From Pyrinomonas methylaliphatogenes (GTDB taxonomy: Bacteria > Acidobacteriota > Blastocatellia > Pyrinomonadales > Pyrinomonadaceae): DNA of 64,000 bases. Below the pieces are notes generated by a model, which searched no databases, had not been told where the DNA came from, and saw only the letters and a program-made list of their open reading frames with translations. Each line of letters starts with the position of its first letter. Position 1 is the first letter of the stretch. Shown here one piece after another: positions 15,895 through 34,034 of this stretch. The translations under genes were made by a program, and so were the position numbers. The stretch spans positions 124,082-188,081 of the forward strand of contig NZ_CBXV010000007.1 in assembly GCF_000820845.2 (NCBI RefSeq), written 5' to 3'.

Positions 15895-15910
15895 TCGACG
15901 CAAGATCGAG

Positions 15911-17548: not shown

Positions 17549-17590
17549 TCGACTCTCTCCTAGAAATCGCATGATTCCAGAAATACGAAA

Positions 17591-17620: not shown

Positions 17621-17671
17621 CATCAATCTCGATCTGGCGACCGAGATGGTTATACGGCGAACTCCATCGCC
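17615..17671 (-). ncRNA. Fluoride riboswitch 1 (crcB motif)
   Basis: On the minus strand the aptamer opens with GGCGATGGAGTTCGCC. ATAACC follows, then a P3 stem-loop (ATCTCG pairing with CGAGAT), and it closes with TGATGACTCC. The order GGnGATGG-stem, TAACC, stem, TGATGnCTCC is the fluoride (crcB) riboswitch signature. It lies between a promoter and crcB, the family's classic target gene. Confidence 0.92.
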
Positions 17672-17690
17672 CCGAATTTTCGCTCCATAA

Positions 17691-17718
17691 TTTTTAGACG
17701 GTGAGGCGGAAATGTCAA
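17691..17718 (-). promoter_or_regulatory. Promoter of the crcB operon
   Basis: Read on the minus strand, TTGACA (17713-17718) is followed by a 16-base spacer and TAAAAA (17691-17696). The predicted start near 17684 leaves room for the whole aptamer. The IS end at 17731 lies 13 bases beyond the -35 box. Confidence 0.7.
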
Positions 17719-17730
17719 TGGGAAGCGAAA

Positions 17731-17753
17731 CCTGACCGCTTATCAGTTTTGAG
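17731..17753 (+). repeat. IS left terminal inverted repeat
   Basis: This 23-bp sequence, starting CCTGACCGCTTATCAG, is repeated exactly in inverse orientation at 18989-19011. Confidence 0.92.
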
Positions 17754-17848
17754 AAGACATCAGCCACTTGAATAGCCTGATGCGCGGTGGCGGTAAGTGC
17801 TGGCGCACGAACTTCTCTGTGAGTCGCACCTTTGCAGTTACCTAATGC

Positions 17849-19417: not shown

Positions 19418-21799
19418 TTGGGTGCACAGCAGACCACACCTGAAGATCAAACTCTTGCTTCGCTGGAAGCATTGGCGGTGTTGGGGCGGCGCACACAACC
19501 CGCTCCGTTGCTGACCACCGTCAGGACGGCGTTTGAAGGAGCACGAGTCAATTTTGTCAGCACGGCGCGCGGCGATCTGGCATTCTCGATCATCGATCTG
19601 CAAATTCAAGGGGCGATGCCGCTCTTCTTCCAACGGGTTTACACGAGCGACGGCGAAGATCGGGGGATGGGACTCGGTTGGTCGTTCGGTTTCGATGATC
19701 GAATCTCGGTTCAAGGCGATCGCGCCGTGATGAAGACCGGCGGCGGCGCGACGTTGAACTTCGTGCGACAAAACGGCGCCCGCTTCGTGCTCGAAAGACC
19801 GGAGCCAGGGCAGCATCAAGCTTTCGATCTGCTCGAGGGAAAGATCACTGAAGAGATCGCCGATTTGCCTGGCTTGGTGCGAACCTACCTTCCAGCAGGC
19901 GGCGAGTATCTTTTGACCGAGGTCGCCGATGCGAACGGCAATCGGATAACGATCAATCGGGACGCAAACGGTCGCATCCTCTCGCTTGAAACCGGAGGTG
20001 CGAGGATCGATTTCGAATGGTCTTGGGGGCTGACTGGGCATTTGATGTCGGTCAGAGACCACGCGGGAAGGCGGGTTTCATTCCGGTATAGCAACAGGCT
20101 TCTGAGCAGCGTCATCGATGCCGCCGGTGCAGAGTGGAGATACAAGTATCAGGCGAATCGTCTGACGCGAGTGGTCGATCCCGAAGGGCGAACAGTGTTG
20201 AAAGCAAGGTACGATGCCTTGTCGGGGCGCGTTCTGCAGACAAGCGATGCTGTGTCGGTCTACGATTACAAGTACGACAACAACGGTCCCGCTCCATCGC
20301 GGCGAACGTTGGTGACCGATCCGCTTGGCGTGCAGCAGGTTTACGAGCACACGGCGGATGGATTGCTCATCAGGGTGAGCGACGCGGATGGGGAGATCAT
20401 GCGCGTCGAGTACAGTCAAACCAACCGTCCGGTGCGATTGGTGGATAGCGCTGGGAACGAGACGCAAATCGCTTACGACGCGCAGAACAGGATCATCCGG
20501 CAGAGGATATCGGATGGAACCGAGAAAACTTTTTCCTACGATGCGCGCGGTCGCTTGGTGAGCAAGGCACAAGGATCCGTGCGCATCGACTACGTGCTAG
20601 ACGACAAAGCGAACGTCATCGAAACGCGCAGCACCGATGCGAGCGTGAACTACCGAGCGCGCTACGACGAGCGCGGGCGGCTCGTTTCGCTGACCGCCAG
20701 CAGTGGGCGAACCTACGGCTTTGAGTACGACTCGTTGGGCAACGAGCGGGCGTTCATCGACCCACAACTCGGACGCTTCACAACAGAGCGAGACGCGCTG
20801 GGCCGCATGGTGGCCGATCGTTTGCCATCCGGTTTAACGTTCAACTACGAATACGATGCGCGCGGCTGGTTGGTCAGGGAGCGCGATTCGCAAGGTCGTG
20901 CCGTGGCATTGGAACGAGATGCAAGCGGCATGGTGAAGAAGCTGACCACAGCGCAAGGAGCTTGGGTTGCTGCCGAGCGCGACGAAGCCGGGCGAATCAT
21001 CAAGCTGACTAACTCGGCAGGCATGACACGGCGGTTCCGCTACGATGGACGCGGTGCCTTGACCGAGTACGTGGATGCGCGCGGGAGGGTGAAGCGGATG
21101 GAGTATGATCGGCGAGGGCGGTTGAAAGCCATCTCGGACGATCAAGGAAACCGTGTGACGGTCGAACGCGATCAGAGCGGGAAGATCACGCGGCTTGCGA
21201 TGAACGATGGCCGTCGCTATCGAATCGAGCGCGGCGCTGATGGTCACGCTGTTGCGATCAAGCCGGAGGGCGGCGAGGTTAGGTTCGAGCGGGCGAGCTA
21301 CGCGAAGAGACCAACGCTGCAGGATCTCACATGGTGGGACTGCATGTTCTCCCCGTGGCAAGATGGCTGGAGCAGTTGGTACCAGCCGCTCTACGATATG
21401 GGATACGATTTCGTCTACGATTGTTCTGATCCATTCGGCTGGGGCCTGGGTGGCGACTACTTGGGCGATCCGTTCGCAGGTGGGCCCTGTGAGACTAGAG
21501 AGCAGTGTGAGCGGCGAAAACGAGATTACTGTAATCAAATGTATGAGTGTGGTTGGGACGCTGGAACGAGGATAGTCGGAGGCATGGCATTCGGTACAAC
21601 TGGGTGTGCGATAGCGGCTGGGTTTTCTGGGCCTGGAGCTCTCGGGGTATTGGGGACATGTGAACTGGGTGTGTTGTTTGGTTCAGCAGGCATGGCAGGC
21701 GTGGAATACGTGTTGTGCGTGCGGAGTCGCCAACTCTGTTTGAGCAGTGTAGGTGAAGAATGTATGGACAAGCCAGATGTGTGCCCACCGCGGCAGTAA
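19418..21799 (+). CDS. Rhs/YD-repeat protein with a cysteine-rich hydrophobic tip
   Basis: The 793-residue frame starts only at a TTG without a ribosome site, so its true start is probably the leader at 19260. Residues about 35-140 match the DUF6531-type N-terminal Rhs domain (GDLAFSIIDLQIQGAMPLFF, MGLGWSFGFDD). YD repeats fill about 150-625 (FNYEYDARGWLVRE, FRYDGRGALTEY and others). A Trp/Tyr-rich seam follows (WYQPLYDMGYDFVYDCSDPF), then a 110-residue tip with paired Cys and Gly/Ala-rich hydrophobic stretches (GTTGCAIAAGFSGPGALGVL), ending CMDKPDVCPPRQ. It is short for an Rhs shell and lacks a recognisable nuclease tip. A surface or secreted protein with a membrane-active effector is my inference. 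Confidence 0.8.
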   Translation: MGAQQTTPEDQTLASLEALAVLGRRTQPAPLLTTVRTAFEGARVNFVSTARGDLAFSIIDLQIQGAMPLFFQRVYTSDGEDRGMGLGWSFGFDDRISVQGDRAVMKTGGGATLNFVRQNGARFVLERPEPGQHQAFDLLEGKITEEIADLPGLVRTYLPAGGEYLLTEVADANGNRITINRDANGRILSLETGGARIDFEWSWGLTGHLMSVRDHAGRRVSFRYSNRLLSSVIDAAGAEWRYKYQANRLTRVVDPEGRTVLKARYDALSGRVLQTSDAVSVYDYKYDNNGPAPSRRTLVTDPLGVQQVYEHTADGLLIRVSDADGEIMRVEYSQTNRPVRLVDSAGNETQIAYDAQNRIIRQRISDGTEKTFSYDARGRLVSKAQGSVRIDYVLDDKANVIETRSTDASVNYRARYDERGRLVSLTASSGRTYGFEYDSLGNERAFIDPQLGRFTTERDALGRMVADRLPSGLTFNYEYDARGWLVRERDSQGRAVALERDASGMVKKLTTAQGAWVAAERDEAGRIIKLTNSAGMTRRFRYDGRGALTEYVDARGRVKRMEYDRRGRLKAISDDQGNRVTVERDQSGKITRLAMNDGRRYRIERGADGHAVAIKPEGGEVRFERASYAKRPTLQDLTWWDCMFSPWQDGWSSWYQPLYDMGYDFVYDCSDPFGWGLGGDYLGDPFAGGPCETREQCERRKRDYCNQMYECGWDAGTRIVGGMAFGTTGCAIAAGFSGPGALGVLGTCELGVLFGSAGMAGVEYVLCVRSRQLCLSSVGEECMDKPDVCPPRQ
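21369..21511 (+). repeat. Rhs tip seam, copy 1
   Basis: This DNA segment codes for the WYQPLYDMGY...CETREQC seam. It recurs at 22527-22696 and partly at 25861-25969, with long identical blocks. Sequence diverges immediately after it, so it marks the boundary where tips have been exchanged. Confidence 0.88.
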
Positions 21800-21809
21800 T
21801 TTCTTACAT

Positions 21810-21851
21810 GAGACCAGTCTCCAATCAAAAAGTTAACTGGAGACTGGTCTC
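21810..21851 (+). terminator. Perfect 14-bp hairpin after the Rhs gene
   Basis: GAGACCAGTCTCCA (21810-21823) pairs perfectly with TGGAGACTGGTCTC (21838-21851), 10 bases past the Rhs stop. There is no U-tract. A comparable perfect hairpin follows orphan tip 2. Confidence 0.6.
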
Positions 21852-21900
21852 TAACTCGAGCAAATTGCGGACCAAGGTAACTTAACGGAGGTAATTAACG

Positions 21901-22296
21901 ATGAGGATCTATTTCTTCGGACTTATGTTTGCTACTTCATTGTTAGCAATCGTGGCTGCCGTCAGTGCGCTCACGAAAAAGGATGAGCTCGGTCGAGCAA
22001 AAATCAAGTTTTTGTTGTCACTAGTCGCCGCTATCTTCATTAATTTTCTGTGGGCAGTTATACCAAAAAGGATGCCATTTCGCGAGATGGAAATAGATCC
22101 AACATTGGTTTCCTCGCCTAGGCTTCTCGAGCAATATTTGTACGAGACGCACAAGACTCTGGAGCGGACCCTCGAAGTGCTTGACCTTACCATGACGTGT
22201 CTCGCACTGTCGTCTATAGCGTTTTTCTCATACAAATTCGGTCTTTATTGGACGCTCAGAAAAGAGCGCAAAGCGAAGGAAAAGCTCAATGACTAA
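21901..22296 (+). CDS. Small membrane protein, candidate immunity protein A
   Basis: The 131-residue protein has TM segments at about 4-24 and 35-55 and a third near 98-116. Between them is a soluble loop with SSPRLLEQYLYETHKTLERT then LEVLDL. The loop resembles that of protein B (23175): an acidic Asp, then PxRLxExL, then a Thr-x-x-Val-Leu segment. GGAGG precedes ATG 21901. Its position directly after the Rhs tip is the usual place for a cognate immunity gene. A membrane immunity protein would fit a membrane-active tip. Function is inferred from layout only. Confidence 0.65.
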   Translation: MRIYFFGLMFATSLLAIVAAVSALTKKDELGRAKIKFLLSLVAAIFINFLWAVIPKRMPFREMEIDPTLVSSPRLLEQYLYETHKTLERTLEVLDLTMTCLALSSIAFFSYKFGLYWTLRKERKAKEKLND

Positions 22297-22468
22297 TGTG
22301 CTTGATGATTTGGTCGCTCAGCATAACTGTTCTTGGCAAGCCACGGTGTTTGAGGGGATGGAAGCTGAGGTTGAGAAGCAAATTGTCAATGATGAATTAG
22401 GGGAAAAGATTGAGATGCTTCTATCTCTTGGATGTATGTCGGAAAAAGAGGAGACCCCTTTGCTGTAG
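22289..22468 (+). CDS. 59-residue acidic protein overlapping gene A
   Basis: The start ATG overlaps the stop of the preceding gene (ATGACTAA). The product is soluble and acidic, with a Cys at each end (AQHNCSWQATVFEGMEAE and LLSLGCMSEKEE). I do not recognise it. The overlap and ordinary amino-acid make-up suggest it is a real coupled gene, possibly a second immunity component, but a chance frame is possible. Confidence 0.4.
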   Translation: MTNVLDDLVAQHNCSWQATVFEGMEAEVEKQIVNDELGEKIEMLLSLGCMSEKEETPLL

Positions 22469-22513
22469 CGGGAGATGCTATCAGTGGCATGTTGATGATG
22501 AGTATTTGCACCG

Positions 22514-22990
22514 TTGGTTGATGTGCGGAGCAATTGGTACCAGCCGCTCTACGATATGGGATACGATTTCGTCTACGATTGTTCCGATCCATTCGGCTGG
22601 GGCTTTGGTGGCGGCAGTTGGTGGGGAAGCGGCATCGGCGGCTACTGGGGCGATCCGTTCGCAGGTGGGCCCTGTGAGACTAGAGAGCAGTGTGAGAATC
22701 GAATCAGGGCAGAAGCGGATAGAGTGTACCAAAACTGTATAAATCAGATAGCCTTTAGCGGCGTAATGACCATAATCCAGTTCCAGGTTACTGCCTGTAG
22801 AGTAACCCTGGCGGCAGGGGCAGTAGGTGGTCCAGAGGCTAGGATCGGAGCCGGGCTATTACTCGATGTTGGTCTCACCTTGGGAGCCATACTTGATTGG
22901 TGCCGCCAAGTTGGAAACTGTATTGACCAGCAGGATCAAGTCTTAGCCCGATTGGTTGAGTGTCAAGGCAAACCGGAAAGATGCCCCTAG
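22514..22990 (+). pseudogene. Orphan Rhs C-terminal tip 2
   Basis: This 158-residue frame begins inside the Rhs seam with no ribosome site: the seam comes first (NWYQPLYDMGYDFVYDCSD, GWGFGGGSWWGSGIGGYWG, CETREQCENR), then a different tip. The tip parallels tip 1 in design: Cys-bearing N-terminal helix, hydrophobic Gly/Ala-rich middle (ACRVTLAAGAVGGPEARIG, GAGLLLDVGLTLGAIL), a closing Cys pair in CRQVGNC, and an end CQGKPERCP like CMDKPDVCP of tip 1. It is a displaced alternative C-terminus that could be expressed only after recombination into the Rhs gene. The intact frame argues it is preserved rather than debris. Confidence 0.75.
22527..22696 (+). repeat. Rhs tip seam, copy 2
   Basis: Near-identical to 21369-21511, but with an extra Gly/Trp-rich block (GGGSWWGSGIGGYW) that copy 1 lacks and copy 3 has. 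Confidence 0.88.
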
Positions 22991-23013
22991 ATAGATTTGG
23001 GAAGTTCAAAAGT

Positions 23014-23053
23014 AGACTCACGATTGGCGATATGAATCGCCAATCGTGAGTCT
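23014..23053 (+). terminator. Perfect 18-bp hairpin after orphan tip 2
   Basis: AGACTCACGATTGGCGAT (23014-23031) is followed by the loop ATGA and its exact complement (23036-23053), 23 bases past the tip stop. There is no U-run. It mirrors the hairpin after the Rhs gene. Confidence 0.65.
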
Positions 23054-23174
23054 CATAGCGAAAACTATGTGCTATGTATAGAGCTTCCAAAGCAAGAGCA
23101 ATCTTGTCGCTCTCGTGAAGCGGAGCATAGAATTCGATTTATGCAAGCCATTTCTTGGTAATTGAGGTGAAAGT

Positions 23175-23582
23175 ATGGGTTCCACTAAATGGATCTATGT
23201 TCCTCTCATCATTTCGCTCGTAGCCCACTTTGCTTTTTTTCTCTATACCGCTTCGAAGAAAGAGGTCGATCCCTTCCAAAGACGGATCAAGTGTAGCGAG
23301 ATTGCCGTCTCTTCCATCATGTTTGCTTGCCTTATCTTCTTGTTTTCGCTTCCGAGCGCGGCAGCTTTTGAGGCGTTTGGTAAGTATGCTTATGATGTTG
23401 AAACCGTGAGGGATCCGCAACGATTGGCGGAAATCCTACGAGAACATAATCTCTACATTGCTAGAACAATAGAGGTACTGCGTTTAATGATCTACTGCTT
23501 TGTTTTCCCGCTGTTAACCACTCTTCTCGCTTTGTTGAACATGATCGGGCTTCTTTATAGAAAGGGAAAAGGTGAAAAGTGA
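23175..23582 (+). CDS. Small membrane protein, candidate immunity protein B
   Basis: The protein has 135 residues with TM helices at about 6-25, 46-64 and 101-124. The loop between the last two contains AFGKYAYDVETVRDPQRLAE and then ARTIEVLRLM. The block SLPxA...FGK...DPQRLxExL...N...TIxVxR is shared with the decayed gene at 25351-25702, so the two are paralogues. GAGGTG precedes ATG 23175. It follows orphan tip 2 as expected for that tip's immunity protein. No known immunity family is recognised. Confidence 0.65.
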   Translation: MGSTKWIYVPLIISLVAHFAFFLYTASKKEVDPFQRRIKCSEIAVSSIMFACLIFLFSLPSAAAFEAFGKYAYDVETVRDPQRLAEILREHNLYIARTIEVLRLMIYCFVFPLLTTLLALLNMIGLLYRKGKGEK

Positions 23583-23704
23583 TTCTGAACGATCAATTCA
23601 AGATAGGAATCGCAGATGGAGTAATAACTTTGCAGTTTTGCGCGAATATAGCTGATATGAATCTGGACGGGCCGATAGGAGATATATGTAGATTCTCTGA
23701 TTAG
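23579..23704 (+). CDS. 41-residue frame coupled to gene B
   Basis: A GTG start overlaps the stop of gene B (GTGA). The product is short and soluble (NDQFKIGIADGVITLQFCAN near the start, DICRFSD at the end). The arrangement parallels the 59-residue gene after gene A. It could be real or a fragment; support is weak. Confidence 0.3.
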   Translation: MILNDQFKIGIADGVITLQFCANIADMNLDGPIGDICRFSD

Positions 23705-23716
23705 TGGAGGGCAATC

Positions 23717-24091
23717 GTGTTAGAAAAAGTTTTGATTGGCCTTACTGTTTCGTTGGTTCTTTATTCGGTCGGTATGATTCGCTATCTTATTCCCTACTTT
23801 TTCCAAACAGAGATCGTCAAGCCAAACCGATTAATGAAGCTTTTCAATGTCTCTTTGATTGTGGCGGTGATAAGCTTGGTGGTCCTTTGGGTCGCGATAA
23901 ATGTACTGCTAGGGAGACTAGAGGATTGCTTGGTTCTCAATCGGCCTGATTCCATTTCTGAAGTGGATTACTGGATCCGGGTGAAAATGATTTTCAATCT
24001 AGCAGTCTTCGCGTATCTCGATTTTATTGCCCTAACACTCTTTATGATCATCAGAGTTCTCAGGACATCGTGGACGGAAAAAATTAAATAA
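23717..24091 (+). CDS. Three-helix membrane protein D, unknown
   Basis: GTG 23717 has GGAGG six bases upstream. The 124-residue protein has TM segments at about 7-27, 45-65 and 98-117, the same plan as proteins A and B. A Cys-containing loop (LEDCLVLNRPDSISEVDYW) replaces the DPQRL motif. It may be a divergent member of the same group, or an unrelated small membrane protein carried in the array. Confidence 0.6.
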   Translation: MLEKVLIGLTVSLVLYSVGMIRYLIPYFFQTEIVKPNRLMKLFNVSLIVAVISLVVLWVAINVLLGRLEDCLVLNRPDSISEVDYWIRVKMIFNLAVFAYLDFIALTLFMIIRVLRTSWTEKIK

Positions 24092-24509
24092 TCTCTGTGA
24101 GATTGCATGCTTGAGATTGTACGTTCGATCCGTGTGAGAAGTGTACCTTCTCGCAACGCCTCAGCTTTAGCGACAGAGATCATGTCTTTAATATTGTTTT
24201 TCTTCAAGTTAAAGAGGATGGAAAAGATAAGGCAAGGAACGCCGAAGAGATTTGAGCACTGAGTCACTGTATACAAACATAAAAAAGAAGCGTTTCGAGC
24301 GCTAGTCTGTTTCTGCCAAAATGGAGACATTGCGTGACGCAAAACTAGCTATTTGTTGTTCCAACTCTTCGAAGGTTTCCTCGTGAAGGGAAGCAAGACA
24401 ATCGGTTAGCAAGTACTCAAAGAGCGTTGGATAAGTATTCACGACGCAATTAATCTTGGTTATGGTGAGGAGCCAAACTCTCCTCACCTAGCCAAAGGAG
24501 GATAGTTCT
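24092..24509. other. AT-richer gene-free stretch with hairpins
   Basis: No convincing gene is visible. GAGAAG/CTTCTC forms a small hairpin near 24138-24155. GGTGAGGAG (24464-24472) pairs with CTCCTCACC (24480-24488) just before the 24510 gene and its AAGGAGG site, so it may affect that gene's translation or end upstream transcripts. Confidence 0.4.
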
Positions 24510-24698
24510 ATGAAGAGTGACATTCAACCCTTCACCAGGATTCTTTGGGTCTGGGTGGGAGCTTTTATTGGATGGTTGTTAGGGGTCGGCTTTGACGGAA
24601 GCGCAGAAAAGATGCGGGATGTTATCTTCTTCATCAAACTCGCGTTACTTGCATGCATTCTGAATTATCTTTTCATAAGGTATAAAGGAAAGAGTTGA
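24510..24698 (+). CDS. 62-residue two-helix membrane protein
   Basis: ATG 24510 is preceded by AAGGAGG. The product has TM helices at about 11-29 (ILWVWVGAFIGWLLGVG) and 40-57 (FIKLALLACILNYLF) and a Lys-rich end. The leader shares CCTCACCTAGC with the Rhs gene leader, suggesting duplicated upstream DNA. Function is unknown; it sits among putative immunity genes. Confidence 0.5.
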   Translation: MKSDIQPFTRILWVWVGAFIGWLLGVGFDGSAEKMRDVIFFIKLALLACILNYLFIRYKGKS

Positions 24699-24862
24699 AT
24701 GGTTCAGGCTTGCTATTGTTTTAGAAACATCGAACTTTAGCTCTTACGCGCTACTGGATAAGGATCAGTCGTGTATAAATCGGAGTCTGGGAAATTAGGC
24801 GGCATGAACGCCTATGACAGATAAAGAGAAGCCATCTTAAAAAAACACGGGGTAGTTGCTAA

Positions 24863-24976
24863 GTGATCGGAAAAACCAAGGAGATTGTCTGCCCTGATGG
24901 CGTTGAGGTGGTTATTACGAGGTTAGGAAATAAGATCCCTCGTCTACTGAAGCATAACGATCAAACACATCGGTGA
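24863..24976 (+). CDS. 37-residue frame, doubtful
   Basis: A GTG-started frame codes for a short basic peptide (KEIVCPDGVEVVITRLGNK in the middle). It may be a remnant of a larger soluble protein. No ribosome site is evident. It is listed because its composition is protein-like, unlike nearby debris. Confidence 0.2.
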   Translation: MIGKTKEIVCPDGVEVVITRLGNKIPRLLKHNDQTHR

Positions 24977-25000
24977 GATAGAATAAAAAGGAGCGTAATT

Positions 25001-25258
25001 ATGAAGGATTGGATTATTTTCAACACCCTATCCATCAGAACTCTTCTGGGAATGACAGTTATCTTTTGGTTGGCGATGTTGGTGTTGATTAGTTTGCGTG
25101 GGAGAGAGCATAAATGGTTGAAGCGATTTTTGATCATCTTGTTATTCTTCAATTGGTTATCAGTAATGATTTCCCCCACGCTGCTCGGTGACAAGATCTT
25201 TGCTACGCTTCTACTGCTTACAACGATCATATTTGCAAAGCGCAGAGCTGAAGTTTGA
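25001..25258 (+). CDS. 85-residue membrane protein
   Basis: ATG 25001 follows AAGGAGCG at a good distance. Three hydrophobic segments are visible: LLGMTVIFWLAMLVLISL, FLIILLFFNWLSVMI and FATLLLLTTIIFA. Basic residues between the first two would favour cytoplasmic placement. The family is unknown. It is another small membrane protein of the Rhs-associated array. Confidence 0.5.
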   Translation: MKDWIIFNTLSIRTLLGMTVIFWLAMLVLISLRGREHKWLKRFLIILLFFNWLSVMISPTLLGDKIFATLLLLTTIIFAKRRAEV

Positions 25259-25350
25259 AAGTCATTTCTTTAGTCGTTAGGCATCGATGGGGCACCGTGT
25301 GCCTCGCTCTATAGACGGAAGCGATCGATGTGACATAGGAGACGACAGAG

Positions 25351-25702
25351 ATGGCTACAACATAGATCTTGCTACTCATCATCGGTACGGGTGAACTAAT
25401 ATGGGCTTTTCACATACGGGCCAAAGAAAAAGAACAAACTTAAAAGGGCTACCAAGGCGATATTGATGCTCACAAAGGGGCTGCAAGCCAGTTTCCTTGT
25501 TTTGTTCGCTTCGTTGCCGCAGGCTTCTATCCTAGGTAGCTTCGGGAAACCTCTATCGGCTTTTGATATGCAAGATCCGCAGAGGTTGTTGGAATATCTC
25601 CAATTGTACAACGAGTCGTTGGTTCAAACCATCAACGTAATGCGCATTTTGATCATTCTGCTGTTGTTCGGACTTGGAGGAGTGCTCGGTATATGCTACT
25701 GA
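25351..25702 (+). pseudogene. Decayed paralogue of immunity protein B
   Basis: Reading from ATG 25351 gives MATT, a TAG stop, then ILLLIIGTGELIWAFHIRAK. After a one-base frame change it continues KLKRATKAILMLTKGLQASF, ASLPQASILGSFGKP and MQDPQRLLEYLQLYN, and ends in a final TM segment with a stop at 25702. These parts align in order with protein B (23175-23582), including SLP, FGK and DPQRL. One nonsense codon and one frameshift have therefore disabled a second copy. An ATG at 25466 could still express the C-terminal two thirds, but nothing supports that. Confidence 0.65.
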
Positions 25703-25822
25703 GCGCTCAGAGATATGCAAGTCGTTCTGAAGGATGAGGCAGTGGAAAAGAAAACAGGTTGAGAGCGTCTCGACTAGACTGTCTCAAAAGATGCATGTCT
25801 CAATCAGATCCTCAGACTTGCG

Positions 25823-26014
25823 ATGCTAGATAGAATTCCGGCTACAGTTTACAATTGCACGGACCCATTCGGCTGGGGCTTTGGTGGCGGCAGTTGGTGG
25901 GGAAGCGGCATCGGCGGCTACTTGGGCGATCCATTCGCGGAAGGGCCCTGTGAGACTAGAGAGCAGTGTAGGAAGAGAGTTCTTCGAGGGAAGCGCAGCA
26001 GGCGCTGTTTATGA
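25823..26014 (+). pseudogene. Truncated orphan Rhs tip 3
   Basis: The frame carries only the second half of the seam (YNCTDPFGWGFGGGSWWG and CETREQCRKR) and then ends after a short basic tail. In another frame, 26007-26030 again encodes VYDCADPF, a further copy of the seam core. This is the decayed tail of the array: seam preserved, tip lost. Confidence 0.65.
25861..25969 (+). repeat. Rhs tip seam, copy 3
   Basis: The segment is almost identical to the 3' two thirds of copy 2, including the WWGSGIGGY block. The upstream part of the seam is missing. Confidence 0.85.
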
Positions 26015-26291
26015 TTGCGCTGATCCGTTCTTCCTTGGGCGGTGCCGCGCTTGAGTGAGGTGGGGGAACCGATCGCGAATTGGTTTACGCCATATTCAGC
26101 CGTGACATGACAACTAAGAATGCTGACACGCGCTTAACTGAAAGAGGGTTGACGTGAAGAGACGTGGCTGTTGAAAGACGGATGCGCGAACCAGGCGACG
26201 ACTCATCGATAGTAGAACCTAGAAGGCTTGAAGGGCTTTTCAAGAGACGCTTCGGCTGACGTTATCGTTGAAATGCTCGCAATGTTTACGT

Positions 26292-26389
26292 TATTTTGCT
26301 GATCGACGGTATGAGCTGAAACGCGGCGTCTACGATCGCAAGCTGTTGCGCCGTCTACTATTTTGCTGATCGACGGTATAGACTGAAAC
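26292..26389. CRISPR. Two-repeat CRISPR-like remnant
   Basis: A 31-base repeat starting TATTTTGCTGATCGACGGTA and ending CTGAAAC lies at 26292-26322 and 26359-26389, differing at two positions. The single spacer is 36 bases (26323-26358). Repeat length, spacer length and the GAAAC end fit CRISPR repeats. There are no cas genes in the window, and neighbouring sequence holds no further clear repeat, so this would be a relic or an isolated mini-array. Confidence 0.55.
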
Positions 26390-26410
26390 CCTAGATAGTT
26401 GGGGGCGACT

Positions 26411-26992
26411 ATGTCACGTCTCTTTCGATTTGGAGCGAAAGTTTTCAATATCAACTTCTGGAGTTTCCTTTTGGGCATCTGCGTAGGCGTGACGCTTTGC
26501 GTCGTCGGTTTCCTCAGCCTAGCTATTCTGGGCATGTTGTTGGCCGTTTACGCGCCGGGGCGGATTGCGCCTCCGACGGTGAGCAAGGTGACGCCGAGTC
26601 ATGATTCCTATCCGCCGCCCCGCTTGCCTATGATAAGGCGAGCTGACTACAGCTGGAAGGTCAGTTCGCTAGATGGGCGTGAGCTGGATTTAGCCGGATT
26701 TCGAGGTAAGGTCATTTTTCTCAACGTATGGGCGACGTGGTGTCCGCCTTGTGTCAATGAGATGCCGAGCATCGAGCGTTTGTACGAGCAGGTGAAGGAT
26801 GAAGGGATTGTTTTCATCTGCGCTTCTGCGGAGGATCGGGAAACGGTCCGTCGTTTCGTTTAGGAGCACGGTTACAAGCTGCCAATCTACACTTTCGCGG
26901 GGGAGCCGCCGGAAGTTTTTCGCGCCGAAGCAGTACCAACGACGTTCATCATCGCGCCAGATGGGACGATCAATCATGCGTTGAATTCCTAA
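26411..26992 (+). pseudogene. TlpA/ResA-like membrane thioredoxin with in-frame amber stop
   Basis: The frame opens with a TM segment (FLLGICVGVTLCVVGFLSLA). A thioredoxin-like domain follows: GRELDLAGFRGKVIFLNVWA, then ATWCPPCVNEMPSIERLY with the CxxC active site. At 26861-26863 a TAG interrupts RRFV and EHGYKLPIY. The same frame then continues through AVPTTFIIAPDGTI, with the cis-Pro, to a TAA at 26990. The end is also shorter than usual. It looks like a periplasm-facing thiol reductase inactivated by one nonsense change, unless the base is a sequence error. Confidence 0.75.
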
Positions 26993-27214: not shown

Positions 27215-27225
27215 AATCGCGAAAA

Positions 27226-27276
27226 GGCGATGGAGTTCGCCTAAGAAGCGTCCAAGAATTTGGACTGATGACTCCT
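27226..27276 (+). ncRNA. Fluoride riboswitch 2
   Basis: The aptamer has GGCGATGGAGTTCGCC, identical to riboswitch 1, then TAAGAA, a P3 hairpin (GTCCAA pairing with TTTGGAC) and TGATGACTCCT. The joining segment departs slightly from TAACC. It lies between promoter and terminator, ahead of an antiporter gene, a known target class for this riboswitch. Confidence 0.88.
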
Positions 27277-27309
27277 GCATCGTGAAAGCGGTGTGGGAGT
27301 TTTTATTTT
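27271..27309 (+). terminator. Intrinsic terminator of riboswitch 2
   Basis: ACTCCTGCATCG (27271-27282) pairs along its whole length, with G-U wobbles, to CGGTGTGGGAGT (27289-27300) and is followed by TTTTATTTT. The ACTCC arm belongs to the aptamer as well, giving the on/off switch. Confidence 0.88.
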
Positions 27310-27341: not shown

Positions 27342-28544
27342 ATGGCTCAAGTATGGTTTCTCGCCTCCATTTGGGTTGGGCTGGCTTTGATTGCCGTACT
27401 GCTTGCCATAAAGCTACGCATTTCGACGGCGCTTTCTGAAATCATCGTCGGCACGGTCGCACAGCTCGTCATCGGAGCGACGATCGGCGCGACCTTTCTT
27501 GGCGCGCAGCAACCGTGGATCACTTTTCTCGCTGGCGCGGGGGCCATCGTGCTGACGTTTTTGGCCGGAGCGGAATTGGATCCCGAAGTCATCACTTCGC
27601 GTTGGAAGGAGACGGCGATCATCGGGCTGGCGGGTTTCTTCGCTCCCTTTCTCGGGTGCGCAGCCATCGCGCGCTATCTCCTTCACTGGCCCACGAGGCC
27701 TTCATGGTTGGTCGGAGTCGCCCTCTCGACGACTTCCGTGGCCGTCGTTTATGCCGTCATGTTAGAGCTCGGATTGAATCACACTTCATTTGGCAAGACC
27801 ATCCTCGCGGCTTGTTTCGTGAACGATCTGGGCACGGTCATCGCGCTCGGTCTGATCTTCGCGCCATTCACGCTGAGGACAGCGATCTTTGTCATCATCT
27901 CCATCATCGTCTTCGCGATTTTGCCGTGGCTGACGCCGCGTTTCTTCCGCCGCTACAGCAATCGAGTTTCGGAGCTCGAGGCGAAATATCTGCTCTTTCT
28001 CCTCTTCGGCATGGGCGGATTAGCGGCGTGGGCGGAGAGCGAAGCGGTTCTACCGGCCTATCTGATCGGGATGGTGTTGGCGGGCACGGTAGGCAAGGAC
28101 CATGTTTTGATACGACGATTGCGGACTTTGACCTTCGGTCTATTGACGCCTTTCTACTTCATTCGCGCTGGTTCTTTCGTGTCGATCCCCGCCCTGCTCA
28201 GCGCGCCACTTACATTCATCATCCTGTTTCTGGCGAAATCTCTGACGAAGTTCATCGGAGTGTTTCCCACAACGAAGATCTATCGCTACGGTAAGGAGGA
28301 AGGGATTTACACGACGCTTCTGATGTCAACGGGACTGACTTTCGGAACGATCTCCGCGCTTTTCGGTCTTTCGCATGGCATCATAGATCAAGCGCAATAC
28401 TCCTACATCGTGGCGACGGTGATCGCCAGCGCTGTCGTGCCGACCATGATCGGCAACGCTTTCTTCCTTCCGAGACATCTTCTGCCGACGATGTCGGAAT
28501 CGGAGCGCGAACCGGAAGTCGTCGGTTCATCAACCACGCTTTGA
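27342..28544 (+). CDS. CPA2-type cation/proton antiporter under fluoride control
   Basis: This membrane protein of 400 residues has about 12 hydrophobic segments and no C-terminal nucleotide-binding domain. FLAGAELDPEVI (TM3-4) and LAACFVNDLGTVIALGLIF (TM5 with an Asn-Asp pair) are the ion-binding core motifs; GLTFGTISALFGLSHGIID lies near the C-terminus. Asn-Asp rather than Asp-Asp is usually linked to electroneutral exchange. AGGAGG precedes ATG 27342 and a fluoride riboswitch-terminator controls the leader. Antiporters are a recognised class in fluoride regulons, perhaps to restore internal pH or cation balance after HF entry. Stop and next gene are 11 bases apart. Confidence 0.9.
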   Translation: MAQVWFLASIWVGLALIAVLLAIKLRISTALSEIIVGTVAQLVIGATIGATFLGAQQPWITFLAGAGAIVLTFLAGAELDPEVITSRWKETAIIGLAGFFAPFLGCAAIARYLLHWPTRPSWLVGVALSTTSVAVVYAVMLELGLNHTSFGKTILAACFVNDLGTVIALGLIFAPFTLRTAIFVIISIIVFAILPWLTPRFFRRYSNRVSELEAKYLLFLLFGMGGLAAWAESEAVLPAYLIGMVLAGTVGKDHVLIRRLRTLTFGLLTPFYFIRAGSFVSIPALLSAPLTFIILFLAKSLTKFIGVFPTTKIYRYGKEEGIYTTLLMSTGLTFGTISALFGLSHGIIDQAQYSYIVATVIASAVVPTMIGNAFFLPRHLLPTMSESEREPEVVGSSTTL

Positions 28545-28555
28545 GGAGGTGCGAG

Positions 28556-28972
28556 ATGTTACAGCGAATTCTTGTCGCCTTTGATGGTTCGGAGCAATCA
28601 CGCAAAGCTTTCGATCTCGGGCTTGAGATCGCTGACAGGTTTCGGGCGAAGCTGCTGGTCGTCAGCGTCATTCAACTGCCTGAGCCAGCCACCTCAGTCG
28701 AGATCGCCGAGTTGCTGGATCGTGAACAAGAGCATCTGTTAGGCGAGATGGCCCATTTGCGGAAGCGAGCTGAAGAGTTCGGCATCGAGCTCGAAACGCA
28801 TATCGCTGCAGGGCACCCGGCTGAACAGATCATTCGCTATGCCGAAGATTGTCGGGCTGACATGATCATCATGGGACGACGCGGAAGGACGCGCGTTACG
28901 CGATGGATCTTAGGTTCGATTTCTGAAAGAGTTTTACGTTACGCGCATTGCCCTGTAACCGTCATCAAATAG
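28556..28972 (+). CDS. UspA-type universal stress protein
   Basis: This is a single Usp domain of 138 residues. It opens with LQRILVAFDGSEQSRKAFDL. The ATP-binding signature is MGRRGRTRVTRWILGSIS (GxxGx9GS), and it ends HCPVTVIK. GAGGAGG lies six bases before ATG 28556; the TTG at 28541 overlaps the antiporter stop and is less likely. Co-transcription with the antiporter puts it under fluoride control. Usp proteins are cytosolic ATP-binding stress factors, and pairing with a transporter is common. Confidence 0.92.
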   Translation: MLQRILVAFDGSEQSRKAFDLGLEIADRFRAKLLVVSVIQLPEPATSVEIAELLDREQEHLLGEMAHLRKRAEEFGIELETHIAAGHPAEQIIRYAEDCRADMIIMGRRGRTRVTRWILGSISERVLRYAHCPVTVIK

Positions 28973-29022: not shown

Positions 29023-29052
29023 TTGCGTCGCTCGGATCGAGCGATTTAAAAT
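29023..29052 (+). promoter_or_regulatory. Promoter of the VWA operon
   Basis: TTGCGT (29023-29028), an 18-base spacer and TAAAAT (29047-29052) lie upstream of the third aptamer. Confidence 0.55.
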
Positions 29053-29068
29053 GAAGGTAAAAGTTCAG

Positions 29069-29117
29069 GGTGATGGAGTCCACCATCAACCACTGCGATC
29101 GGCAGTTGATGACTCCT
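29069..29117 (+). ncRNA. Fluoride riboswitch 3
   Basis: GGTGATGGAGTCCACC (P2 with compensating GGTG/CACC changes) is followed by ATCAACC, a P3 hairpin (ACTGC pairing with GCAGT) and TGATGACTCCT. The arrangement is the same as in riboswitches 1 and 2. Paired-base changes that keep the helix argue for a functional RNA rather than a recent copy. Confidence 0.88.
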
Positions 29118-29160
29118 ATTTCGAAGCTTAACTGGGTTTCGGAAAGGAGTTCTTCTTTTG
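29112..29160 (+). terminator. Terminator / ribosome-site hairpin of riboswitch 3
   Basis: ACTCCT plus TTTCGAA (after one bulged A) pairs with TTCGGAA plus AGGAGT (29138-29150), then TCTTCTTTT. The 3' arm is also the AAGGAG ribosome site of the next gene, so the hairpin could block transcription and translation together. Confidence 0.75.
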
Positions 29161-32100
29161 CGTCAATCGGAAAGAGCACAAAGACTCGATCCTCCGCGCG
29201 AAACTGTTCCGCCTCAGAACTTCGCTGTGAAAGAGTGGTTCGCGCACATCGCCGCCAAACGTGAGCGGATAGAATGTTGGCAACGTGCAGCGTGCGGTTG
29301 GTCGCAGATTTCATTCCATTCGTTCGATTCGGCCTTGGATTTCCTCCGCGCTTTTCGGCGCATCTTGCTCCGGCTCAATCCGGCAGATTCCATCCGTTGG
29401 ATTGACTGTAGCGTCAGACTAGCGCGTGTCGATGCCTCGTTGGCCGCGGAATTCTTCCGCATGGGCACGGACGTCATCCTTCACGCGCCATCTTCGCTGC
29501 GTTCTCACCTTCTCGCGCTATGCATCAACGTGACGCAGATCTATGGCCGCGATGCGATGCTCGATTGCCTGCGCGCGGCCATGGCCATTACGGAAGGGTC
29601 GAGCGATCAGGATGTGAGTGCGCGATTGATCGAAGTGGCGCTCAAACTCAGCTACGGGTCGCTCGGCTACTGTTGCGCGTTCCTGCAACAGGCAACGAGA
29701 ACTATTCGGCAATGGGAGGCGAAAGGTGAAGCTCACAAAAGCTTCTCGCTTCATTTGCTCGACTTCGTCGGGCGATTGCCAGTAAAGCTCGCCGTGGATC
29801 TGTTTGAGGCTTCCTTACCATTGCTCGAGCGTGCGGAGACTGGAAGCCCGCTCGCGGTGACGCTCGGCGAACGGTTGATACAACACACGGAAAGATTCAT
29901 CGCCGTTGATGATGACGGTGCGGTTCGCTTCTTCATCTGTGGCGCGAAGCTTGCTCGGCTCGAAGATGTAACTTTGATCGATAAGTGGGCGGCGCTTTGC
30001 GATCGATTCGCCAATGTCGAAGGCGCGGCTTTCCACAATTTCACGACGCTGGCTGAAGGAGCGACCGAAAACTTAGTTGCGCTCGCTTTGACGCATGGTA
30101 GCGAGGGGAAGGCGGCGGTTATGGCTGCGCTCGACAGCGCCCAGCTTGTCGCCGAGCGCAGCATAGTTGCGGCGAGCAAGTGTTACGAGATGAGTTCGGC
30201 TTTGCTCGCGCGGCTGTCAATTGACGCTTATCGTGATTGGGTGAAGCGCGGACTCGCCTCATTTGCCGAAAGCAACAAGCTCATCGCTTATTTCGCTGCG
30301 GAATCGCGCGCCAGTCAGAAGGCGATCGCCGAGACCTCCGATACGTTACGGTTAGAAGATGTGCTGCCTGTGCTCAAGCGGTATATCAGTATGTTAACCG
30401 GAAAAGAACTCCCTCTCATTGCGAGACCGCAGAAGTGCGATTTGCTCGAACCGGAGTCGGATGAAACGATCGGTTTGCCACCGACAATCGTCGGCTTAGG
30501 GAGCGCAGAAGAGCGATTTAGATACTACAAGGTGCTCGCCGCGCAGCGAGCTGGCCAGATCGAATTCGGCACCCATGAGATGGAAACGGAGCGGTTGCGC
30601 GCGCTTGGTTTGGAACTGTGCCGTAGATTCGCTCATCGCCCGCCTGCTTCTTTGAATGGTGAGACGGATTGGCGCACGCTCATCAATATCTTTCCGCAAA
30701 CAGCGCTTGCGCGGCGCCTCTTCATAATCCTCGAGAATGCACGCATCGAGCATCTCCTGCGTGTGCGCTATCGCGGGTTGCGTCGTGATTTGGATTGGGC
30801 ACAAACGCTTCCGAAGCGTGCACGTCCGCTGGACCAATACATTTTGAAATATGAGCCGTTTCTCGAACTGCTTTTCGTCGAGGCGCTCGGCTCGGGAGCG
30901 AGAGGCGTTCTCGATGAAGAGAAGCGCGCATGGACGGAGAAAGTAAGGGCAGTGCTAGCCGCTTATGTGCGCAAGGATGGGGCGAACGTCGCCGACACGA
31001 TCCGCGCTTGCTTGGAGCTTTACGAATATCTCGATCCCGAAGATCCAGAAAATGCTCTGCACTGGGAGAACGAGCGGCGTCGAGACGTATCGCCGAGGTC
31101 CGAAAAAGGGAAGGGAATGGAAGATGTAGAAGGACAAGATGGCATCGGAGAAATGCTGAGATTTGAAGGTCGGAGAGGAGATGCTGGGCAGATTCGCGCA
31201 CGACCGTTAGCTCAGGCTGCTTGGGGCGCACCAGCCACAGACTTGCAGGTCGGCGCTGCGATGGGAGGCGTCGCTCAGCCGCTCGACGATGTGCGTTTGC
31301 CTAACGCCTTTTACTACGACGAATGGGATGCGCGTATTGGCGATTACCGCCCACGTTGGTGTCGTGTGATCGAGCGCGAATGGCGAGCGGATGACCGCAA
31401 TTTCGTGAAGCGCGCGCGTGCCGAGTACGCGGGATTAATCAAACAAGTGCGCAACCGTTTTCAACTCCTACGGCCCGTCGGGTTAAGGCGCGTGCGCGGG
31501 CAGGTTGATGGAGACGAGATCGATCTTGAAGCGGCGATTGAATATGTCGTCGACCATCGCGCGCATCGCACCCCATCGGATCGAATCTATGTCGAACGGC
31601 AGCGCCGCGAACGCGAAACGGCGGTCTGTTTCCTCCTCGATATGTCCGGTTCGACGAGCGCGCGCATCGCGGCAAACAAGCGCGTACTCGACGTGGAGAA
31701 GGAGGCTTTGCTGCTGATGAGCGAAGCGCTCGAGGCACTCGGCGACGCTTATGCCATCTACGGCTTTTCGAGCAATGGGCGGACTAGCATCTCCTTTTAC
31801 CGGTTCAAGGATTTCGATGAGCCCTACAGTGAATTGATAGCCGATCGCATTGGCGGAGCGAAGTGGCTAGCCAACACGCGGCTCGGCGCTGCGATTCGGC
31901 ATGCGACGCGGCGATTAAACGAACAATCTGTGGCGACGCGTTTGCTCATCATTTTGAGCGACGCGCAGCCGACCGATGACGAATATAGCGATGCGCACTA
32001 CGCGCGCGAAGATACGCGCGTCGCTTTGACGGAGGCACGTGCTAGCGGCGTCTTCCCTTTTTGCATCGCCTTTGATCTCAGGGGCGATACGCAACTTGAT

Positions 32101-32196
32101 GAAATGTTCGGAAGGAACGGTTACTCGATCATTCAAGATACCCTTCGGTTGCCGGAGAAGATGCCGGATATTTATCGTCGTTTGACAACGCGATGA
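29158..32196 (+). CDS. NorD/CbbO-like large VWA-domain protein in a fluoride operon
   Basis: TTG 29158 is set by AAGGAG eight bases upstream; the product has 1012 residues. About 650 helical residues resemble the N-terminal part of NorD/CbbO-type proteins, including LIARPQKCDLL and the His/Arg-rich middle. A variable acidic linker comes near 640-690. A C-terminal VWA domain carries the MIDAS: FLLDMSGSTSARIAANK near 825-841, the Thr in ANTRLGAAIRHA near 905, and LSDAQPTDDEY near 935. NorD-type proteins normally work with a MoxR/NorQ AAA+ ATPase in metallo-enzyme activation. No such ATPase is in the window. Fluoride-riboswitch control is unexpected, and the client is unknown. Confidence 0.82.
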   Translation: MRQSERAQRLDPPRETVPPQNFAVKEWFAHIAAKRERIECWQRAACGWSQISFHSFDSALDFLRAFRRILLRLNPADSIRWIDCSVRLARVDASLAAEFFRMGTDVILHAPSSLRSHLLALCINVTQIYGRDAMLDCLRAAMAITEGSSDQDVSARLIEVALKLSYGSLGYCCAFLQQATRTIRQWEAKGEAHKSFSLHLLDFVGRLPVKLAVDLFEASLPLLERAETGSPLAVTLGERLIQHTERFIAVDDDGAVRFFICGAKLARLEDVTLIDKWAALCDRFANVEGAAFHNFTTLAEGATENLVALALTHGSEGKAAVMAALDSAQLVAERSIVAASKCYEMSSALLARLSIDAYRDWVKRGLASFAESNKLIAYFAAESRASQKAIAETSDTLRLEDVLPVLKRYISMLTGKELPLIARPQKCDLLEPESDETIGLPPTIVGLGSAEERFRYYKVLAAQRAGQIEFGTHEMETERLRALGLELCRRFAHRPPASLNGETDWRTLINIFPQTALARRLFIILENARIEHLLRVRYRGLRRDLDWAQTLPKRARPLDQYILKYEPFLELLFVEALGSGARGVLDEEKRAWTEKVRAVLAAYVRKDGANVADTIRACLELYEYLDPEDPENALHWENERRRDVSPRSEKGKGMEDVEGQDGIGEMLRFEGRRGDAGQIRARPLAQAAWGAPATDLQVGAAMGGVAQPLDDVRLPNAFYYDEWDARIGDYRPRWCRVIEREWRADDRNFVKRARAEYAGLIKQVRNRFQLLRPVGLRRVRGQVDGDEIDLEAAIEYVVDHRAHRTPSDRIYVERQRRERETAVCFLLDMSGSTSARIAANKRVLDVEKEALLLMSEALEALGDAYAIYGFSSNGRTSISFYRFKDFDEPYSELIADRIGGAKWLANTRLGAAIRHATRRLNEQSVATRLLIILSDAQPTDDEYSDAHYAREDTRVALTEARASGVFPFCIAFDLRGDTQLDEMFGRNGYSIIQDTLRLPEKMPDIYRRLTTR

Positions 32197-32248
32197 AATC
32201 GAGAGGATTGAGCAAGGTCGCACACGCCGCGGTCTCCGAGGGAAGCTG

Positions 32249-33130
32249 ATGGTTAAAGTCGATCAATTCGCGTTGCGGATCCGCGAGCCAAAAGATGTGC
32301 CCGCGCCGCTTCTGGCCTTCTATGAAAAGGCGCGCGCGGATGATCTTGATGGCTATGTCGTCTATGCCCCACCCATCACCGATCCACCCGCGCGCCATCG
32401 CCAGGTGCCCGCTGGACATCTGCTCATGATAGGCGATGATCGTTTGCGCATCGCCATTGATCGTGGTGTGGTGGAAGAAGTCGAGATACCGTTTGCCGAC
32501 CTGATCTTCGCCGAGATCGGAGAAGCTTTGCTCTTTTCGTGGATGAGGCTCGGTTTCGGGCGGCATACGAGTCGTGAAATCAAAATACCTTTCAATACGG
32601 TCGGCATCGAACTCTTCAGGCAGGCGCTGTTTTCGATACGAAAAGCGCTCGATGTGAGCCCCGATAGAGCACGTGATTCGCACGCCGATCCGTCAAGGCT
32701 GCCGTTCAAATTTCAAAGCGAGCTTCGCCGCTGGTTGCTCGAAGGCGAGCAGATATTCGAGCTGGCGTTTCAACCGGAGATCCGCACACATCGTTTCATC
32801 GTCTTCGCGCGACAATTGGCGCCGCCGACTCTTCTTGCCCTGACAGATCGCCAGTTCTTCTGCGTCACAGAGGAGCCGCCGGTAGCGCGCGAGCGACTGA
32901 GCAAATATTCATCCGTTTATGTCTATTGCCCGCTTCCGCGTTTGGAATCATTGGCACTCGAAGCGGACGGAGCGCGAAGGGAGTTGCCCGAAGTTCGAAT
33001 CGGTCTCGTCAACGATCGAGCGCGTGTTCGGTTCACTGTGAAGGTCGGCAGCGATTGCTTGGCGCAATTTGCGCTCTTCTGTCGAAACGTCATGGGATCT
33101 GTGGAGAAAAGCGCGTGCGAAAGGCGTTGA
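32249..33130 (+). CDS. Two-module protein, PH-like fold suspected
   Basis: I do not recognise this 293-residue protein. The first half has a pattern like bacterial PH-type domains: LLMIGDDRLRIAIDRG, then VEIPFADLIFAEIGEALLFS and IPFNTVGIELFRQALFSI. The second half repeats the theme more weakly (LLALTDRQFFCVTEE, YSSVYVYCPLPRLESLAL, VRFTVKVGSDCL). No membrane segment or catalytic motif is obvious. It starts 52 bases after the VWA gene and is probably co-transcribed. A membrane- or protein-binding adaptor is a guess from the fold pattern. Confidence 0.7.
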   Translation: MVKVDQFALRIREPKDVPAPLLAFYEKARADDLDGYVVYAPPITDPPARHRQVPAGHLLMIGDDRLRIAIDRGVVEEVEIPFADLIFAEIGEALLFSWMRLGFGRHTSREIKIPFNTVGIELFRQALFSIRKALDVSPDRARDSHADPSRLPFKFQSELRRWLLEGEQIFELAFQPEIRTHRFIVFARQLAPPTLLALTDRQFFCVTEEPPVARERLSKYSSVYVYCPLPRLESLALEADGARRELPEVRIGLVNDRARVRFTVKVGSDCLAQFALFCRNVMGSVEKSACERR

Positions 33131-33159
33131 AGCGGCGCATGGCTCGATCAAGCTGAGCG

Positions 33160-33588
33160 ATGGAGATAAGCGAGGCACATAAGCTGCATATCGGCGTCAT
33201 CCTGCGGAACCTCGAACGAGATCTGATCGCTTTCGAGAAGGACGCGGGGAAAGAGGCTTTTCCGGCGCGTTTGACGGTTTACATCGATCGAATTCCGCCA
33301 GTCGCGGAGATTTTTGAGCTTGTAGCTTCGATGCGGCGCGAGATCGAAAACGTCGCGGATGAGTTTGAGTTGCCGCCGTACGCGGAAAGCACCATTCGCG
33401 CGTTCTTGGGGCGTTTGCACGTGAGGGTTGTCAGCATCGGCGAACTGAGGCCTTGTGCATTGCGCGCCGCTGGCGAACTGGAACCAGAGTTCGCCAAATA
33501 TATCGAAGCGAAGGCGGATCGCCTCGAAACGCTTTTGCGGCGGTTGATCGCGCTTTTGGAAGAACAAGCCCGGAAAAATCGTGCGTAG
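33160..33588 (+). CDS. Helical protein of unknown function
   Basis: The 142-residue protein is helical and charged. It begins with a hydrophilic helix (AHKLHIGVILRNLERDLIAF) and ends in a coiled-coil-like helix (YIEAKADRLETLLRRLIALL). No family is recognised. It lies 29 bases after the previous gene and two bases before the next, so it belongs to the VWA operon. Confidence 0.65.
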   Translation: MEISEAHKLHIGVILRNLERDLIAFEKDAGKEAFPARLTVYIDRIPPVAEIFELVASMRREIENVADEFELPPYAESTIRAFLGRLHVRVVSIGELRPCALRAAGELEPEFAKYIEAKADRLETLLRRLIALLEEQARKNRA

Positions 33589-33590
33589 AG

Positions 33591-34034
33591 ATGAGTCTCG
33601 TTAGCGAGCGGAGGACGGTGGTGGCGAGAAGACGAAGGGCGCGTGGTTTTGAGCATAACCAACTCGGCGTTACGTTCTATCGGAGCGGAGCGCTCGATTT
33701 GGCCATCGAGCGGTTCGAGCTTGCGACGCGCCGCGCGCCGTGGGTCTCTTCGTACTGGCTCAATCTCGGCGTTGCATTTCTCGACAAAGGGATTTTGGGT
33801 AAAGCTGAAGCGGCGATCAAGCGCGCGCTCGAACTCGATAACAAAAGCCAGTCGGCATACTTTCACTTGGCTAAACTTCATGAAAAGCGTGAGGATGAGG
33901 CCGCCGCGCGTGAGGCTTATGAGAAGGCGATTGAACTTGATCCGCGCACTCATCTGGCCCAACGCGCGCGGGAGCGGCTCGAGGAGTGGCATCCTCGTCT
34001 GCTTGGAATGCCGAATTCAGGCGAAAGGTCTTGA
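33591..34034 (+). CDS. TPR-repeat protein, end of the VWA operon
   Basis: ATG 33591 stands two bases after the preceding stop. The 147-residue product has a basic N-terminus and about three tetratricopeptide repeats: NQLGVTFYRSGALDLAIERF, LNLGVAFLDKGILGKAEAAI and FHLAKLHEKREDEAAAREAY with AIELDPRTH. TPR proteins act as protein-binding scaffolds. In this operon it could hold together the VWA protein and its partners, which is inference. Confidence 0.8.
   Translation: MSLVSERRTVVARRRRARGFEHNQLGVTFYRSGALDLAIERFELATRRAPWVSSYWLNLGVAFLDKGILGKAEAAIKRALELDNKSQSAYFHLAKLHEKREDEAAAREAYEKAIELDPRTHLAQRARERLEEWHPRLLGMPNSGERS

Follow-up and report, generated by a model that had tools for sequence, protein, structure and literature searches.

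What could a NorD-like protein be doing under the control of a fluoride riboswitch? This question is raised by an operon located in the 64,000-nucleotide stretch of the Pyrinomonas methylaliphatogenes genome analysed here (contig NZ_CBXV010000007.1, positions 124,082 to 188,081; hereafter the window), which begins with a gene for a NorD-like VWA protein and continues with genes for a double-PH protein, a small helical protein (HEL) and a TPR protein. The fluoride resistance known so far relies on export, on pH balance and on additional copies of inhibited enzymes. The answer that we propose, with a probability of about one half, is that a fluoride ON-switch runs these four genes as a stress operon, whose first product, a re-targeted NorD, would recruit the housekeeping NorQ to a metalloenzyme client.

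A preliminary description of the window, made from the sequence alone, had placed a complete fluoride aptamer upstream of the VWA gene. An Rfam covariance-model scan (cmscan) bore this out at the coordinates originally given: the entire RF01734 model is covered, the score of 51.0 bits (E 3.4e-11) is well over the cut-off of 34, all base pairs are standard and a GGAGU/ACUCC pseudoknot is possible. The single unusual base, GTC instead of GTT in the P1 loop, is a common variant among relatives (10 of the 28 patterns read). A genome-wide search of the assembly (3.79 Mb, 99.5% complete) revealed three fluoride aptamers and no others; all three are in the window, and every fluoride switch of this genome lies within 12 kb. 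One of them governs crcB together with two DUF190 genes, a dynamin-like GTPase gene and a gene for another small helical protein (D147). Another is placed before the genes for a CPA2 antiporter and UspA, and the third controls the VWA, PH, HEL and TPR genes. The promoter candidate ahead of the third aptamer is weak, with 8 of 12 consensus matches, and is absent from the list produced by the promoter scan. The corresponding leader in G131, a genome of the same family and another genus, keeps the TTGC start of the -35 element, the 18-nt spacing and TAAAAT, with a diverged spacer. The spacer in the window holds a perfect inverted repeat, CGCTCG-GAT-CGAGCG (29029-29043), not conserved in G131, which is possibly an operator or the terminator of the UspA operon. 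Taken together, the sequence data strongly support fluoride control of the VWA operon, which would be expected to respond to fluoride in vivo.

How the switch acts is suggested by an alternative hairpin that joins the 3′ arm of the aptamer to the ribosome-binding site. This hairpin has 18 bp and a folding energy of -21.3 kcal/mol (z -3.65), equalled by none of 200 shuffles, and its AAAGGAG sits 8 nt ahead of the TTG start at 29158. The G131 leader has an equivalent hairpin (z -3.25), and in each of the three leaders of the window a long alternative hairpin can be built with the GACTCCT arm of the aptamer itself. The structure had been called a terminator-like hairpin whose 3′ arm is the ribosome site. 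The hairpin, with the ribosome site in its 3′ arm, is as described; its role as an intrinsic terminator is less clear, since it is not among the terminators listed by the consensus scan, though a U-rich tract lies 3′ of it. Translational masking is thus at least as likely as termination, and the switch may be translational, transcriptional or both. Without fluoride, the 3′ arm of the aptamer would pair with the ribosome site and might also end transcription. Binding of fluoride and Mg would keep this arm in the aptamer pseudoknot, for which this ACTCC is likewise required, and would free the ribosome site.

The NorD-like character ascribed to the VWA gene product in the preliminary description agrees with its matches, over the last 300 residues, to the NorD chains of solved NorQD complexes (3e-54 and 9e-46). 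The stronger match is NorD in 9qhd, with which residues 705-1010 align nearly ungapped. The reading frame is full length, and the Pfam VWA domain (residues 823-988, 1.5e-8) has an intact metal ion-dependent adhesion site (MIDAS), in which DMSGS, the T of NTRLGA and the D of LSDAQ line up with the NorD family. A NorD-like gene was present in every near-complete genome among 60 relatives searched, and P. methylaliphatogenes has a second, housekeeping NorD on another contig (C8). The window protein is 58% identical to the latter in the VWA domain, 54% over the preceding segment (721-815) and 20-31% in the N-terminal parts, and its C-terminus, LPEKMPDIYRRLTT, is near-identical to that of the housekeeping protein. 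According to cryo-EM, NorD contacts NorQ by two parts, a finger of the VWA domain and the C-terminus (PMC13036017). Both contacts appear to be kept here, with the finger extension placed within 721-815 by our own assignment, not read from a structure. Conserved docking parts combined with an altered cargo half are what a swapped adaptor would be expected to look like. In the tree, the protein groups with NorD of the class, apart from the CbbO-like set (100/100), and thus not with the CbbO rubisco activases. It falls outside the housekeeping NorD clade (97/98) on a long branch (1.99), a position in which long-branch effects are possible. Its NorD identity is strongly supported by these comparisons, and it is a divergent paralogue of the housekeeping protein.

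The age of this arrangement could be traced in G131. The matching island of this genome is composed of crcB/DUF190s, an aptamer-CPA2-Usp-Usp unit and an aptamer-PH-enolase-TPR unit; the PH and TPR proteins are 46% and 61% identical, respectively, to those of the window, and the TPR orthologue scores 174 bits, with 46 bits for the next-best of 32 genomes. The leader of the window VWA gene and that of the G131 PH gene align closely across the aptamer and the hairpin. In G131 the TTG equivalent to the VWA start is the first codon of a short frame of 28 codons, LQRKLVSIIDNVIDLLERMPRIYRRLTT (L052 14448-14534). The last residues of this frame match the C-terminus of the VWA protein, and its stop codon overlaps the start of PH. 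This relic scores 66 against the window VWA protein (maximum of 5000 shuffled peptides, 48), and the NorD C-terminal motif was found at no other fluoride-riboswitch locus read. The relic resembles the ends of the window VWA protein and of the housekeeping NorD alike and may derive from either copy; its place and frame are settled. The shared leader and the in-frame relic indicate that the two islands descend from one in which the VWA gene stood between the switch and the PH gene, and that it was deleted in G131; a late insertion of VWA ahead of PH is ruled out by the relic. The association of the VWA gene with the switch thus probably goes back to an ancestor shared with G131, or else to a shared transfer. 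The possibility, raised in the preliminary description, that homologous operons in all related genomes lack the motif does not agree with G131, whose operon has it together with the same leader and the VWA relic. The relic itself may now be a leader peptide coupled to PH via TGATG.

In G001, a genome of the same genus as P. methylaliphatogenes, the crcB switch has as its direct neighbours cupin and polA genes, which here border the VWA operon, and the whole insert carrying this operon is missing. The stretch from 17.7 to 34.0 kb, which holds RHS-like genes and both + strand fluoride operons, was thus gained here or lost there. Between the crcB and CPA2 operons (19418-26863) it encodes a protein of the RHS-repeat type along with several small membrane proteins, none of which the G131 island has. 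Coordinates of the distinguished features are summarized in Table 1.

Table 1. Features of the fluoride island in the window (positions are those of the window).
Feature	Position	Strand	Evidence
Promoter candidate TTGCGT-18-TAAAAT	29023-29052	+	read from sequence
Fluoride riboswitch aptamer before VWA	29060-29125	+	RF01734, 51.0 bits; orthologous leader in G131
Alternative (OFF) hairpin, aptamer 3′ arm and ribosome site	29111-29151	+	fold
Ribosome-binding site AAAGGAG in 3′ arm of hairpin	29143-29149	+	sequence, fold
NorD-like VWA protein, 1012 aa, TTG start	29158-32196	+	Pfam VWA, NorD chains in PDB, tree
Double-PH protein, 293 aa, new family (predicted fold)	32249-33130	+	four members, model
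HEL, predicted four-helix protein, 142 aa, distant D147 homologue	33160-33588	+	hhalign, profile, model
TPR protein	33591-34034	+	TPR Pfam hits; start 33591 ATG, or GTG 33618/33621
Fluoride riboswitch before CPA2	27217-27284	+	50.4 bits
CPA2 cation/proton antiporter	27342-28544	+	Pfam Na_H_Exchanger 2.1e-35
Universal stress protein	28541-28972	+	Pfam Usp 1.2e-36
Fluoride riboswitch before crcB	17607-17680	-	40.6 bits
crcB fluoride channel gene	17027-17606	-	Pfam CRCB 3e-30
Two DUF190 genes (16623-17030 and 15911-16630)	15911-17030	-	Pfam DUF190
Dynamin-like GTPase	14185-16044	-	Pfam Dynamin_N 3.8e-22
D147, small helical protein, HEL paralogue	13758-14201	-	fluoride-linked family

The three genes behind the VWA gene had been described as encoding a two-module PH-like protein, a helical protein and, last in the operon, a TPR protein, and all three assignments hold, the first two in structural models and the third by Pfam hits. 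The model of the 32249 protein (predicted local distance difference test, pLDDT, 76) folds as two seven-stranded PH modules, each ending in a helix. The second module reaches a Z score of 8.5 to 3hsa, and Foldseek gives a probability of 0.99 for the match to the Spt16 double PH. The nearest folds are the soluble chaperone PH modules of Spt16/SSRP1 and bacterial PH, and a PH-domain superfamily fold is therefore predicted. No Pfam or PDB sequence match was obtained, and internal sequence duplication is not significant, the two modules being visible in the model alone. Among 162 genomes of the class, PH was found only here and in G131; a profile search of 396 genomes of the phylum added two distant members, in G291 and G381. 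All four lie in fluoride-switch islands, which in the latter two genomes have the orders aptamer-enolase-crcB-DUF190-PH-MFS and aptamer-enolase-CPA2-DUF190-MFS-PH, respectively. A search for plasmid carriage of PH gave no match.

HEL, modelled as a four-helix protein, has no significant fold match in the PDB. It is a distant homologue of D147 (hhalign E 1.4e-6), and in a blind D147 profile search of this genome HEL was the sole other hit (E 1.6e-4). Over 158 genomes of the class, the D147 profile found 12 strong members, one in each of 12 genomes, and none of them is farther than ~3.5 kb from a fluoride aptamer; a leftover weak hit of the profile search contains two stops. A weak similarity to GvpK in three D147 members (best 0.0016) is near noise. 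Judged by their location, D147/HEL and double-PH seem to be small fluoride-dedicated families. The neighbours of VWA are thus not random, as PH, HEL and TPR are themselves fluoride-linked.

Several related loci were noted in other genomes. At L067 (10777-14636) and L068 (11240-15725), a pair of neighbouring dynamin-like GTPases stands by fluoride operons; one GTPase of the pair begins with a domain resembling D147, and the pair of L068 adjoins two tandem fluoride aptamers (10800-10865 and 11025-11090, - strand). Other fluoride-switch operons of the class encode a pyrophosphatase and D147 (L071 9061-10242), a HEAT-repeat protein with a zinc ribbon and D147 (L078 8429-9258), and a PP2C phosphatase (L083 9493-10350).

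As a weak acid, fluoride builds up inside cells, where it binds to active sites centred on metals; its known targets include enolase and pyrophosphatase (PMC11139923). In the reading that we propose, the first product of the operon would be a duplicated, re-targeted NorD, which kept the NorQ-docking parts while its N-terminal half, taken to bind the cargo, became different. In the presence of fluoride it would recruit the single housekeeping NorQ AAA+ motor to another client and would remodel or reactivate this client, for which the most plausible candidate is a metalloenzyme that is blocked by fluoride or mis-metallated/mis-assembled. The double-PH, HEL and TPR proteins would be fluoride-dedicated accessories, i.e. 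scaffold or membrane partners. Use of NorQ by the VWA protein is likely, and the repair step with its target enzyme is attractive by analogy with CbbQO and NorQD. In its boldest form, which we advance only tentatively, the proposal is one of fluoride-induced repair, in which NorQ, given a swapped adaptor, would pull open and reactivate enzymes locked by metal-fluoride complexes, with double-PH and HEL as dedicated partners.

Several observations weigh against this proposal. No MoxR/NorQ gene was found in the operon, so the VWA protein must borrow the housekeeping NorQ or act alone; the genome's one strong NorQ-type AAA_5 (123 bits) is encoded on C8, near the housekeeping NorD. Of the earlier view of a NorD-type protein working with a MoxR ATPase, the NorD identity was retained, and a partner, if used, would come from outside the operon. 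The loss of VWA in G131 shows that it is dispensable. An intact VWA gene was found at none of 42 further fluoride-aptamer loci of the class that were read, and among the matches listed for the 396 phylum genomes, none beyond this genome has VWA and a fluoride aptamer on one contig. The long branch, moreover, could mean relaxed constraint.

A gene that is intact in one genome only, deleted in G131, placed on a long branch and missing with the whole insert from G001 might be a lineage-specific passenger, whose place behind the switch is owed to chance or history and whose induction by fluoride has no specific role. This we consider doubtful: the frame is full length with the MIDAS and docking sites intact, the start codon is built into the tail of the riboswitch hairpin, and the shared leader suggests that VWA persisted under the switch from the ancestor common with G131 or from a shared transfer. 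Membranes or other proteins are frequent ligands of PH folds, and PH, HEL and dynamin might form a membrane-stress system against weak-acid (hydrogen fluoride, HF) entry, in which VWA-NorQ would assemble or remodel this membrane complex instead of repairing metalloenzymes. Consistent with this, a D147/HEL-related domain is fused N-terminally to the dynamin-like GTPases of G291 and G381 (hhalign 9e-9), members of the HEL family stand directly behind a dynamin gene both here and in G089, and the neighbouring CPA2 antiporter operon would suit a response to pH stress. However, in G110 the gene ahead of a D147 member encodes a pyrophosphatase under switch control, and in G047 a HEL relative is paired with a HEAT protein, not with dynamin. 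In addition, the modelled PH best matches the soluble chaperone modules of Spt16/SSRP1. The membrane role is putative, and we regard such a system as rather improbable.

Metalloenzyme remodelling could also have one specific target, with VWA-NorQ reactivating fluoride-inhibited enolase and so standing in for the additional enolase that other islands have. That fluoride acts on enolase is well known (PMC11139923), and two reports describe the repair of inhibited Rubisco by the CbbQ/CbbO pair (PMC4660213, PMC5437159). An extra, fluoride-switch-linked enolase occurs in all three other PH-carrying genomes (G131, in which VWA was deleted and the operon has enolase, G291 and G381), whereas this genome has the housekeeping enolase only. 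One lineage against three carries no statistical weight, however, and the G131 enolase, lying between PH and TPR, takes the place that HEL has here and not that of VWA. We therefore regard such a dedicated enolase reactivase as very unlikely.

With regard to the remaining genes of the island, the crcB operon (13758-17767, - strand) runs on through the two DUF190 genes into the dynamin-like GTPase and D147. The longest crcB open reading frame (17027-17767) extends upstream through the aptamer, and the true start lies downstream of the latter; automatic annotation could misplace the crcB start within 17607-17767. Among anti-phage defence models, none matched VWA, PH or HEL, and the dynamin GTPase gave a weak LeoA-type match.

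The fluoride literature searched names no NorD-like VWA, double-PH, HEL/D147 or TPR protein, and no paper was found in it that joins fluoride riboswitches with VWA/MoxR/DUF190, the full contents of the original 2012 gene list lying outside that search. If the repair proposed here is true, it would be a third strategy beside fluoride export and making more of the inhibited enzyme. AAA+ repair of fluoride-blocked metalloenzymes becomes a testable question, and named candidates are gained for many uncharacterised genes behind fluoride riboswitches.

Compared with known fluoride (crcB) riboswitch regulons, such as the FRM operon of Enterobacter cloacae (ppaC-uspA-eno-gpmA-crcB), by which more enolase is made (PMC5533749), the island is ordinary in its RF01734 switch over a multi-gene operon and in its crcB, DUF190, CPA2 and UspA genes; it differs in the added TPR gene and in its new putative effectors, i.e. 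the NorD-type adaptor, double-PH and HEL/D147. The predicted fold of the double-PH protein resembles eukaryotic double-PH chaperone domains (Spt16, SSRP1, Rtt106) and bacterial PH (DUF1696), with no sequence relation to them. With the NorQ/NorD (MoxR AAA+/VWA) metal-insertion chaperones, the VWA protein shares the docking region, the VWA MIDAS and the C-terminus, but it has no NorQ in its operon and a divergent N-terminal half, and is fluoride-switched and separate from the housekeeping NorD. Its VWA half is 38% identical to that of the CbbQ/CbbO rubisco activases, although these form a separate clade (100/100) and the protein has no rubisco link. Being a motor with its adaptor, by which an inhibited enzyme is freed, CbbQ/CbbO would nevertheless offer a working analogy for what the fluoride-switched NorD paralogue may do.

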